Part shown: piece by piece, positions 19,266 through 20,609 of the stretch
How the letters are laid out: the number at the start of each line of letters is the position of its first letter
Numbering within the stretch: the stretch's first letter is position 1
From: a virus
Reading direction: 5' to 3' (one strand)
DNA: 20,609 nt
IMG/VR virus record: IMGVR_UViG_3300017771_000155
Span: 1 to 20,609 of that record
Made by a program: the position numbers and the translations under genes
The notes under the pieces: model-generated
What the model was told of the DNA's origin: nothing
Database searches by the model: none
Seen by the model: only the letters and a program-made list of their open reading frames with translations

Positions 19266-19715
19266 TTAAGCGTCTTCAGTGAAGTCATCATCATCTGTAC
19301 CAGATAATGTGTTGTCATCACCAGCTTCTTCAACTTGTGCTGCGCCATCTGAAGTACTAGTTGCAAAGTTCCAAGGAACAGTCAAACCGTCATATGCGTT
19401 TGAACCTGTTGCAGATGGTGCTGATAGTGTTGCTTTCTTTCCAGCAATTTTACTTACTAGATAAGTTTCACTGTCGTCCATATTAAATGAAATTGACATT
19501 TCGCCTGCTGTTAATGCTGCTGGTAATTTACCAGTTGTTAGTACACAAGTAAATTCACCTGCTGTTTCAATTTCTTCACAGACAAATTTCTTTGAACCTT
19601 TTTGCTTTACGATATAACCTTCTTTAACTGCTGAGCCGTTATGAAAGTTGACTTTGATTTCTGATCCAGCCGCTGTTGGCTCACCAAACAATCTTTTATT
19701 AAGTGGTCTTCCCAT
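19266..19715 (-). CDS. Small virion-type protein with acidic tail, 149 aa
   Basis: The start is placed at the internal ATG (19713-19715; MGRPLNKRLFG) because AGGAG sits 8-9 bases upstream, separated by a run of A, and because the in-frame extension to 19802 reads through a hairpin-rich leader. The product has a basic N-terminus, a beta-rich core (EIKVNFHNGSAVKEGYIVKQ, then KKFVCEEIETAGEFTCVL), MSISFNMDDSETYLVSKIAGKKATLS, and a strongly acidic, disordered-looking end (EEAGDDNTLSGTDDDDFTEDA, broken here as EEAGDDNTLSG and TDDDDFTEDA). No motif gives a function. As the first gene after the best late-promoter match it may be highly expressed, which would suit an abundant capsid- or tail-associated protein. 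This is inference. Confidence 0.7.
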   Translation of the reverse strand: MGRPLNKRLFGEPTAAGSEIKVNFHNGSAVKEGYIVKQKGSKKFVCEEIETAGEFTCVLTTGKLPAALTAGEMSISFNMDDSETYLVSKIAGKKATLSAPSATGSNAYDGLTVPWNFATSTSDGAAQVEEAGDDNTLSGTDDDDFTEDA

Positions 19716-19816
19716 TTTTTTTCTCCTATTAAGTAGTCCTATGCGAGTTCTAGTCGCTACGCTGTGGGTTAAACAGCATAAGTCCGCCACACTATGCGGC
19801 ACACTTTAGACACAAG
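19716..19816 (-). promoter_or_regulatory. Hairpin-rich 5' leader of the 149-aa gene
   Basis: On the minus strand this gap can form three consecutive hairpins before the ribosome site: 19786-19791 with 19795-19800 (6 bp with one G-U), 19761-19765 with 19773-19777 (5 bp perfect), and 19743-19746 with 19754-19757 (4 bp). AGGAG and an A-run follow, directly before the ATG at 19715. Together with the late promoter match at its upstream end, it looks like a deliberate untranslated leader, possibly for mRNA stability or for control of a highly expressed late gene. Confidence 0.4.
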
Positions 19817-19824
19817 TATTTATC
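19817..19824 (-). promoter_or_regulatory. T4-type late promoter match GATAAATA
   Basis: Minus strand GATAAATA is a perfect match to the NATAAATA late motif described for T4-like cyanophages, and one base from T4's TATAAATA. It overlaps the TAA stop of the 89-aa gene and lies about 100 bases before the 149-aa ATG, at the head of the whole structural gene run. No other perfect match was found in the gaps of this window. Confidence 0.5.
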
Positions 19825-20089
19825 TTCTGCTAAGAATAGATAAGAGTTCTTGCTGTCCAACAGTTTTAAGGAGAATGTTGATATTGTCTATTTCTGCTTG
19901 GGCACGTTCTAAATGTATAGTACGTTTTGTCTGCCTGTGCATAATCATGTGCTGACTATGATTATCAATGAGCTTTTCTAGTGCTTTAGATAACTGACGA
20001 ACATCGTGTTTGAACATAGAATGGTTCTTATTCCATTTTTTCACTTGTTCTCTTAATAAAGAGAAGTCTTTGTCGTCTTTTATCTCCAT
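19820..20089 (-). CDS. Small helical protein of unknown function, 89 aa
   Basis: Begins MEIKDDKDFSLLREQVKKW. The protein is almost wholly helical and charged, with regularly spaced Leu/Val/Ile (VRQLSKALEKLIDN about 30-43; ERAQAEIDNINILLKTV about 61-77), suggesting a coiled coil, and a His/Met/Arg-rich middle (NHSQHMIMHRQTKRTIH). There is no ribosome site before the ATG. The -10 of the promoter at 20096-20124 ends 6 bases upstream, so the message is probably leaderless. The next internal ATG (codon 25) also lacks a ribosome site. It lies outside the late leader and has its own sigma70-like promoter, so it may be an early or regulatory protein rather than a virion part. Function not recognised. 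Confidence 0.6.
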   Translation of the reverse strand: MEIKDDKDFSLLREQVKKWNKNHSMFKHDVRQLSKALEKLIDNHSQHMIMHRQTKRTIHLERAQAEIDNINILLKTVGQQELLSILSRR

Positions 20090-20095
20090 GCTAGT

Positions 20096-20124
20096 ATTAT
20101 ATAGTATTTTGGACAGTTAGTCAA
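20096..20124 (-). promoter_or_regulatory. Near-consensus sigma70-type promoter (TTGACT-17-TATAAT)
   Basis: On the minus strand, TTGACT (20119-20124), a 17-base spacer and TATAAT (20096-20101) match the bacterial housekeeping consensus at 11 of 12 positions. The -35 box begins one base after the T-run of the upstream terminator. Predicted start is at or within 1-2 bases of the ATG at 20089, implying a leaderless transcript. A host-sigma promoter would fit early or middle expression, in contrast to the late octamer downstream. Confidence 0.65.
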
Positions 20125-20125
20125 G

Positions 20126-20150
20126 AAAAAAGACGCCGTAGCGCCTTTTT
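20126..20150 (-). terminator. Intrinsic terminator with UACG tetraloop
   Basis: Read on the minus strand: A-run, GGCGC, loop TACG, GCGTC, then six T. The 5-bp stem has one G-U pair that would be an A-C mismatch on the plus strand, so it is built for minus-strand RNA. The A and T runs extend the stem. The C(UACG)G loop is of the very stable UNCG class common in bacterial terminators. It ends transcription from the putative RNA gene upstream, insulating the next promoter. Confidence 0.8.
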
Positions 20151-20370
20151 AAAATATAAGCAAAATAGGTAGGACTTGGTTACACCTACAAGCACGTACA
20201 CAGAATACCATTCTATCACGCACAACCTAGTTCCGCTCGGTAGAGCAATGTGATCCTCAGTCTCTCAACCTTGAACCTGGGTACCACCCCTAACTAGTCA
20301 AGTTCGACCCTTCTGGTAAAGGCCTCTTCCTTGCACTATAAACAAAAGTTAATTACTCTTTTGTTGCTAT
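20126..20370 (-). ncRNA. Putative structured small RNA, about 245 nt
   Basis: A gene-free stretch between a sigma70-like promoter and an intrinsic terminator, clearly less AT-rich than its flanks. On the minus strand it can form hairpins at 20341-20365 (8-bp perfect stem at the 5' end), 20306-20324 (7 bp, loop of 5, two G-U), 20298-20304 with 20267-20274 enclosing 20279-20289, 20250-20254 with 20215-20219 enclosing 20235-20246, 20202-20214, and 20169-20173 with 20185-20189. Two stems pair as G-U on the minus strand but mismatch on the plus strand, supporting minus orientation. A 6-bp pairing of 20292-20297 with 20227-20232 could make a pseudoknot. No long reading frame, tRNA or tmRNA signature fits. 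Class unknown; marine metagenome RNA families are candidates. Confidence 0.5.
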
Positions 20371-20376
20371 ATTATT

Positions 20377-20404
20377 AATATAACACAAAATAAGTATTTG
20401 TCAA
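20377..20404 (-). promoter_or_regulatory. Sigma70-type promoter for the putative small RNA
   Basis: Minus strand TTGACA (20399-20404) is a perfect -35 box. A 16-base spacer leads to TATATT (20377-20382); an alternative TATTAA gives an 18-base spacer. It starts 21 bases after the stop codon of the upstream gene, and the predicted start is near 20370, just before the 8-bp hairpin at 20341-20365. Confidence 0.55.
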
Positions 20405-20425
20405 CCTCTTTTATTTTGGATAAAA

Positions 20426-20609
20426 CTATATATTATTACTTGAAGTAACAGAAATATGTTTTAGTACTTTGCCAGTATTCTCGCCACTTTTTACAGTATA
20501 TCCACTAGTACCACTACCATTAATGTTTGGCTCAGAACGTGACATCATTAAGATGCGTTCCTTACGAGCTCTCATTTTTGCCTCGCGGTATGTTTTGTGT
20601 AAATGATCG
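20426..20609 (-). CDS. C-terminal end of an unrecognised protein (runs off right edge)
   Basis: A 60-residue open C-terminus on the minus strand ending SVTSSNNI with TAG at 20426-20428; the frame is open to the window edge. The visible part starts with a basic helical stretch (HKTYREAKMRARKERILMM) and continues into a polar, Gly/Ser/Asn-rich tail (PNINGSGTSGYTVKSGEN) followed by GKVLKHISV. An internal ATG exists, but no ribosome site is obvious before it, so continuation upstream is more likely. It is not included in the longer open frames because the start lies outside. Family and function cannot be told from this end. Confidence 0.6.
   Translation of the reverse strand, partial: DHLHKTYREAKMRARKERILMMSRSEPNINGSGTSGYTVKSGENTGKVLKHISVTSSNNI

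Follow-up and report, generated by a model that had tools for sequence, protein, structure and literature searches.

A divergent manA-family RNA in a viral genome stretch, probably encoded as a gene of its own

The manA RNA family (RF01745) was published in 2010 by Weinberg et al. as a marine and cyanophage riboswitch candidate, and the accessible parts of that paper place it often in potential 5′ UTRs (PMC2864571). Elsewhere, 48 significant base pairs have been reported for the family (PMC7779021), and the excerpts available from three papers label it cis-regulatory (PMC9964418, PMC10832533, PMC10665884), with a copy on a Bifidobacterium megaplasmid reported in one of them (PMC10832533). The Rfam type of RF01745 is likewise Cis-reg, and the gene type that gave the family its name is that of mannose-6-phosphate isomerase. 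Within the accessible portions of open-licence papers on the family, no function is established for manA and no treatment of it as a free-standing RNA was found.

The window analyzed here is the whole stretch of 20,609 nt that makes up positions 1 to 20,609 of the IMG/VR virus record IMGVR_UViG_3300017771_000155, and its minus strand carries a match to the full manA model (positions 1–192) at 20159–20363. With cmscan and Rfam 15, this match scored 57.9 bits (E 1.1e-12) against a gathering score of 55.2, and manA and freshwater-2 were the only families found at E ≤ 1 over 19600–20609; no match was obtained in that interval for the IMES, wcaG or PhotoRC-II models. A sequence-only reading of this DNA had presented the RNA as undescribed and as a possible relative of the IMES RNAs, which are RNAs from marine metagenomes, and had proposed an Infernal search against Rfam. 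That search has now been run and identifies a known RNA, so that, given the RF01745 match and the prior publications, the word “undescribed” must be dropped. The suggested IMES relationship is not supported. By sequence and structure, the window RNA is assigned to the manA family: it passes the RF01745 gathering cut-off over the full model, its consensus structure is backed by covariation across 37 sequences, and a model of its own branch recognizes cyanophage manA in return. The cis-reg tag is a functional label that lies outside the sequence and structure definition of manA.

A sigma-70-type promoter, TTGACA-16-TATATT, stands at 20377–20404 on the minus strand with 11 of 12 consensus bases and a TG preceding its second hexamer, and its sequence is 100% identical in all ten other distinct contigs of the same locus. 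From a predicted start near 20370 to position 20126, the RNA would measure 245 nt, ending in a putative intrinsic terminator at 20126–20150 on the minus strand (AAAAAGGCGC-UACG-GCGUCUUUUUU), with a UACG loop and a G20144-U20133 wobble in its stem. This terminator was identified by our own script and by family comparison, whereas another terminator scan of 19700–20609 listed 0 sites, we think because its rule seems to count the A/U tract as stem. Frames that open with ATG, GTG or TTG inside the unit reach at most 34 aa (minus strand) and 25 aa (plus strand). Folded as a single sequence, the 245 nt reach −72.4 kcal/mol, whereas shuffled sequences give −62.75 ± 4.82 (z −2.0), with 4 of 200 falling as low, and the folding energy, taken alone, is only moderate evidence of structure; the predicted fold contains eight hairpins, terminator included. 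The promoter, the roughly 245 bases without a reading frame, the at least six hairpins and the UACG-loop terminator with its 20133/20144 wobble had all been picked out by the sequence-only reading, and all are borne out.

Past the terminator, a separate promoter (TTGACT-17-TATAAT, 20096–20124, minus strand, 11 of 12 consensus bases) precedes the next gene (19820–20089, minus strand), which encodes an 89-aa protein with no Pfam or PHROGs family at E ≤ 0.001 and is read here as a transcription unit separate from the manA unit. The −10 box and the ATG of this gene (20089–20124) are only 6 nt apart, so its mRNA may be leaderless. Another protein of the window, of 463 aa and used for host assignment, had no match in the phage collection.

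Homologues of the RNA were gathered through two pattern scans of viral contigs and one protein-anchored scan, and two types were found among the matches listed, a cyano-type and a window-type. Cyano-type copies score 169–195 bits against RF01745 (six loci scored). Among the matches listed, 50 records lie behind window-type loci. RF01745 detects 35 of them at E ≤ 0.001, 11 above its gathering cut-off; one of the 50 (that of L195) holds a second, weak match of 20 bits. A covariance model, R1, built from 37 window-type sequences, recovers the window and those 50 loci, i.e., 51 of 51 (five truncated at contig ends), partly by construction, as the model was built from many of the same loci, and this figure and the 35 of 50 obtained with RF01745 come from different search routes and are not strictly like for like. 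At E ≤ 0.01 the same model matches 29 cyano-type sources out of 50 (among the matches listed), and at E ≤ 1 it hits none of the 50 unrelated genome contigs searched. As judged from these searches, the window RNA sits in a divergent manA branch that is mostly missed by Rfam. Beyond viral contigs, R1 gave 0 matches in 118 genomes of the same family as a Pelagibacteraceae contig and RF01745 gave 0 in 121 genomes of the same family as a Prochlorococcus contig, both being searches without a positive control. A pattern scan of genome contigs yielded no convincing manA by eye in nine filtered candidates among the matches listed, and plasmids searched with a cyano-type query returned nothing.

The fold was assessed in an alignment (A2) of 37 distinct window-type sequences, including three of the same locus that were reached via the neighboring protein (L010, L012 and L017). 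Conservation inside the seed is uninformative, because the seed patterns fix those letters in homologues from the pattern scans. Over 63 named pairs, 92.6% of cells are paired and 40 pairs are double-changed, values that 0 of 500 shuffles equaled, and sliding the partners lowers pairing to 34–52%. An unprompted RNAalifold run on the same alignment returned 53 pairs, 38 of them with double changes. Covarying homologues in marine viral contigs, which the sequence-only reading had named as a check, therefore exist, and the conserved reading frame it had raised as the opposite outcome does not appear, the longest stop-free sense runs ranging from 36 to 74 codons across the 37 homologues. Moreover, 56 pairs in these homologues comprise 286 G-U and 7 A-C cells when read on the minus strand, so the RNA is the minus-strand one; the earlier argument to this effect, drawn from two G-U pairs, holds, as do the coordinates given with it.

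RNAalifold and covariation also support an outer helix, P0, that is absent from the helices of the Rfam model. Its 5′ strand, AGCAA (20364–20368, minus strand), lies at the predicted transcript start and its 3′ strand, UUGCU (20159–20163, minus strand), just before the terminator, corresponding to alignment columns 6–10 and 223–227, so that both hairpin P1 and the main domain lie within it. In a version of eight pairs, P0 includes six double-changed pairs, and its pairing or covariation score was reached by 0 of 500 shuffles; the window keeps five of the eight tested pairs, with three columns unpaired, and its minimum free energy fold also forms GCAA/UUGC of P0. P1, the 5′ hairpin of the manA motif (20341–20365, minus strand), is present in the Rfam alignment, A2 and the RNAalifold structure, and its two outermost pairs compete with P0. 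The main multi-branched domain (20165–20339, minus strand) is closed by AUAG at 20339–20336 with CUAU at 20168–20165; its helix 3 has 100% of cells paired, double changes occur in other helices, and P8 (columns 156–190) aligned poorly, its inner part (helix 12, 51.8% paired) being unsupported. A kissing contact between a GUGGUA loop and a UACC loop has complementary runs of five pairs in 28 of the 37 rows and of four pairs in 7, and is regarded as unsupported because shuffled loops often reach four to five pairs. By eye, the 3′ hairpin adjoining the closing stem has a tRNA- or tmRNA-like look, which is not claimed as a reading.

A census of promoters and terminators in the homologues started from 161 stretches past a first filter, of which 133 had enough flank and 129 remained after application of 3′-end patterns (four failed these: L039, L052 and L117, apparently true manA, and L196, a false one), giving 111 distinct units among the matches listed, 37 window-type and 74 cyano-type. 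When at least 10 of 12 consensus bases directly upstream are taken as the criterion, a promoter is found in 100 of these 111 units: in 32 of the 37 window-type units, against 1.4% of 654 random positions, and in 68 of the 74 cyano-type units, against 2.0% of random positions in the same loci. The best promoter score is 11 or 12 in all 16 phage genome records. Among the matches listed, the first helix begins 5 nt past the −10 box in 49 of 67 cyano-type units measured and 6 nt past it in 19 of 32 window-type units measured (3 in the window itself), so near that almost no leader is expected on the transcript. A simple terminator lies within 70 nt downstream in 27 of 37 window-type units, against 1.2% at random, and in 10 of 74 cyano-type units, against 1.6%, again among the matches listed. 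Since the units are related by descent and were found via sequence seeds, and the 16 genome records were picked for holding a match and include near-identical pairs, these fractions are not independent samples; even so, the window-type figures agree with the discrete minus-strand RNA unit, beyond chance, that had been proposed from the window alone.

Among the cyano-type units of the matches listed, 13 others of the 74 carry a hairpin, GACCTAAGATGCAACT...GGGCAGATGGTC, 3′ of manA, often with a T run (L033, L037, L066 and ten more); no Rfam family matched it in L033 and L037. Neither a simple terminator nor the GACCTAAGATGCAACT hairpin is present in 51 of the 74 (among the matches listed), and many of the cyano-type units without a terminator have a start codon within 50 nt. 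With so many cyanophage copies lacking a terminator, a leader role could therefore still apply there.

The terminators of the window branch offer a view of what lies between the RNA and its neighbor. Among the matches listed, the 27 window-type units that have one display 17 different terminator 5′ arms, some of them alike. A weak duplex-energy test on these units gave no sign of antiterminator pairing beyond the level seen with foreign bodies, the arm pairing with its own RNA at −9.89 and with the RNAs of other units at −9.65 kcal/mol (mean rank 0.56). Past the 27 terminators and before the next gene, a sigma-70-like promoter (4) or the element NATAAATA (18), which we take to be a T4-type late promoter, occurs in 20 of 27 together, against 3.6% of 663 random stretches. 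Of the seven terminator units without such an element, two (L160 and L240) have a convergent next ORF; these ORFs are related to each other, and the one searched, that of L240, had no Pfam or PHROGs match. More generally, among the matches listed the first ORF met downstream is a minus-strand one in 9 window-type units (of 37) and 4 cyano-type units (of 74); judged by eye, L160 and L240 alone have likely genes there, and the rest were left unused. Contigs of the same locus as the window keep the 89-aa gene at 92–100% identity, with part of the manA core down to 78–79% in five of ten and the terminator down to 52–56% in seven of ten. The core is retained and the terminator different in L014 and L015, and sequence beyond the 89-aa gene diverges (51–61%) in five of these contigs, as does that upstream of the promoter in one.

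At the level of genomes, one manA copy was found by Infernal with stricter filters in each of 16 phage genome records of 141–252 kb, a preselected set with some near-identical members. Its places include those after gp23, after pstS, between regA and purL, behind ferredoxin, and before gp32, talC or rubrerythrin. In P-SSM2 (AY939844), manA occupies 142837–143034. The downstream ORFs (available for 110 of 111 units, a few perhaps spurious) form 40 blastp clusters, 13 with window-type members, and the recurring genes, named by eye from annotated relatives, are gp32-like in 14 units and transaldolase-like in 9, all among the matches listed. A MannoseP_isomer domain (mannose-6-phosphate isomerase C-terminal) occurs in the representative of the cluster found downstream of 4 of 111 units among the matches listed, three of which (L140, L147 and L148) have it behind a terminator. 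Outside phages, 150 genomes of the Photobacterium jeanii family yielded manA in six, 241–248 nt before the next ORF and with weak promoter matches of 8 of 12 only; there (L409–L414) it lies, by eye, between phosphoglycerate-mutase-like and small membrane protein genes, not at a manA gene. GenBank has hypothetical genes drawn over manA in P-HM1, P-SSM4, S-SSM5 and P-HM2 (L378, L380, L382 and L385, respectively), which are probably spurious.

Other RNA elements adjoin the motif. In the window, a freshwater-2 RNA (RF02980, 19713–19801, minus strand, 73.3 bits with cmscan) lies behind the sole NATAAATA element (19824–19817, minus strand) and before the gene at 19715–19266. In window-type loci that were scanned, freshwater-2 follows the manA unit within ~85 nt in 8 of 11, and a glutamine riboswitch (RF01739) lies ~160–290 nt upstream of the unit in 8 of 11 (L170, L173, L187, L193, L197, L234, L253 and L256), placing up to three RNA elements in a row. 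A tRNA-Asn or tRNA-Gly gene is found within ~20 nt behind manA in six cyano-type loci (L025, L042, L055, L079, L125 and L131).

Taken from sequence, the window RNA is a divergent manA member, probably encoded as its own gene, most likely acting in trans, and not a leader switch of the next gene. Its own promoter and own terminator, the sites expected of a small RNA, are present in the window and in its branch, and because the terminator (20150–20126) and the second promoter (20124–20096) separate it from the next gene, the cis-reg label does not fit this copy; the context thus favors the free-standing RNA of the sequence-only reading over the published label. The main alternative, which we consider unlikely, is a cis-regulatory leader or riboswitch candidate acting on the next gene, with attenuation at 20150–20126 in the window. 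It accords with the Rfam type and with the potential 5′ UTRs described in the accessible text of Weinberg et al. (PMC2864571), as well as with the many cyano-type copies, and that of Pelagibacter phage Mosig, that lack a terminator and are closely followed by a start codon on the same strand. An aptamer-like fold with a terminator behind it is, moreover, classic attenuator anatomy, and 4 of 111 units among the matches listed precede the cluster with the MannoseP_isomer representative. However, antiterminator pairing in the weak test is no better than with foreign bodies, two bodies are each paired with two different terminators, and a promoter-like element follows the terminator in 20 of 27 units and a convergent ORF in 2 more, among the matches listed. 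The single copy per genome record, beside functionally unrelated genes, also speaks against a leader, even if a cis element employed once in each genome would fit it too, and in the six genomes of the Photobacterium jeanii family the next ORF is 241–248 nt away and by eye is no mannose gene.

It is conceivable, with somewhat less probability still, that manA has a dual use, being a discrete unit in the window branch and a processed or stabilizing 5′ leader in cyanophages, cut out like tRNAs. Cyano-type units mostly lack terminators yet share the promoter geometry, a tRNA gene stands directly behind 6 of 74 of them among the matches listed (cmscan agrees in L025, L079 and L131), and the accessible text of PMC10832533 mentions manA RNAs that adjoin tRNAs; against this, 23 of the 74 (among the matches listed) do carry a terminator or the GACCTAAGATGCAACT hairpin. 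Chance hairpins or an unannotated small gene, for which one could cite the single-sequence z of only −2.0 and the GenBank ORFs drawn over some homologues, can be set aside almost entirely: the covariation and the 286 G-U against 7 A-C cells, the lack of any frame above 34 aa in the window unit and the stop-free runs of 36–74 codons in 37 homologues already refute this reading as far as sequence allows.

If the autonomous RNA gene is correct, a host-type RNA polymerase would start at the promoter at 20404–20377, with the transcript's 5′ end in or beside the first helix, and the RNA would fold into a multi-branched domain closed by P0 and the inner closing stem until the terminator at 20150–20126 ended it, giving a product of ~245 nt. 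We infer that such a transcript exists, and that it would bind a host or phage partner in trans during the phase served by host-type promoters. A broader proposal, to which we give an even chance, is that the entire manA family is a free-standing RNA gene, present once per genome in marine phages and some Photobacterium relatives and trans-acting early in infection, with the window in a large branch overlooked by Rfam in which RNA core and terminator were swapped and promoter and neighbor gene kept. Were manA to act in trans, functional guesses drawn from neighboring genes would have pursued the wrong mechanism. Conserved, single-copy and driven by a host-type promoter, such an RNA would be a candidate tool for host takeover in phages that infect Prochlorococcus, Synechococcus and SAR11, whose cells are among the ocean's most abundant. 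As far as the literature searches go, the divergent branch, helix P0, the promoter and terminator geometry and the single-copy placement beside changing neighbors are new here.

Among known systems, the IMES RNAs share only a marine origin with the window RNA, which has no Rfam IMES match at E ≤ 1. The wcaG and PhotoRC-II RNAs of cyanophages are structured RNAs of marine T4-like phages that PMC10665884 labels cis-regulatory; the window matches neither of their models. Within the phage collection, the copy nearest to the window RNA is that of Pelagibacter phage Mosig EXVC030M (MT647606), with 73.3% identity over 74% of the query. It has the same promoter type, scores 64.0 bits against RF01745 and forms P0 in a compensated form (AAUGC/GCAUU); unlike in the window, no terminator was found and a rubrerythrin gene begins 23 nt behind the motif. 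The Mosig record has no RNA feature annotated at manA, and its tmRNA gene, ~3.2 kb away (L002:2629-2843), also matches the permuted tmRNA model RF04321 with 93.6 bits. Finally, the window RNA agrees with manA as described by RF01745, also found in marine T4-like phages, in the order of 5′ hairpin, closing stem, multi-branched core and 3′ hairpin adjoining the closing stem; it differs in belonging to a divergent branch with an extra outer helix, P0, and a terminator directly behind the motif, and, probably, in not being the leader of the next gene.
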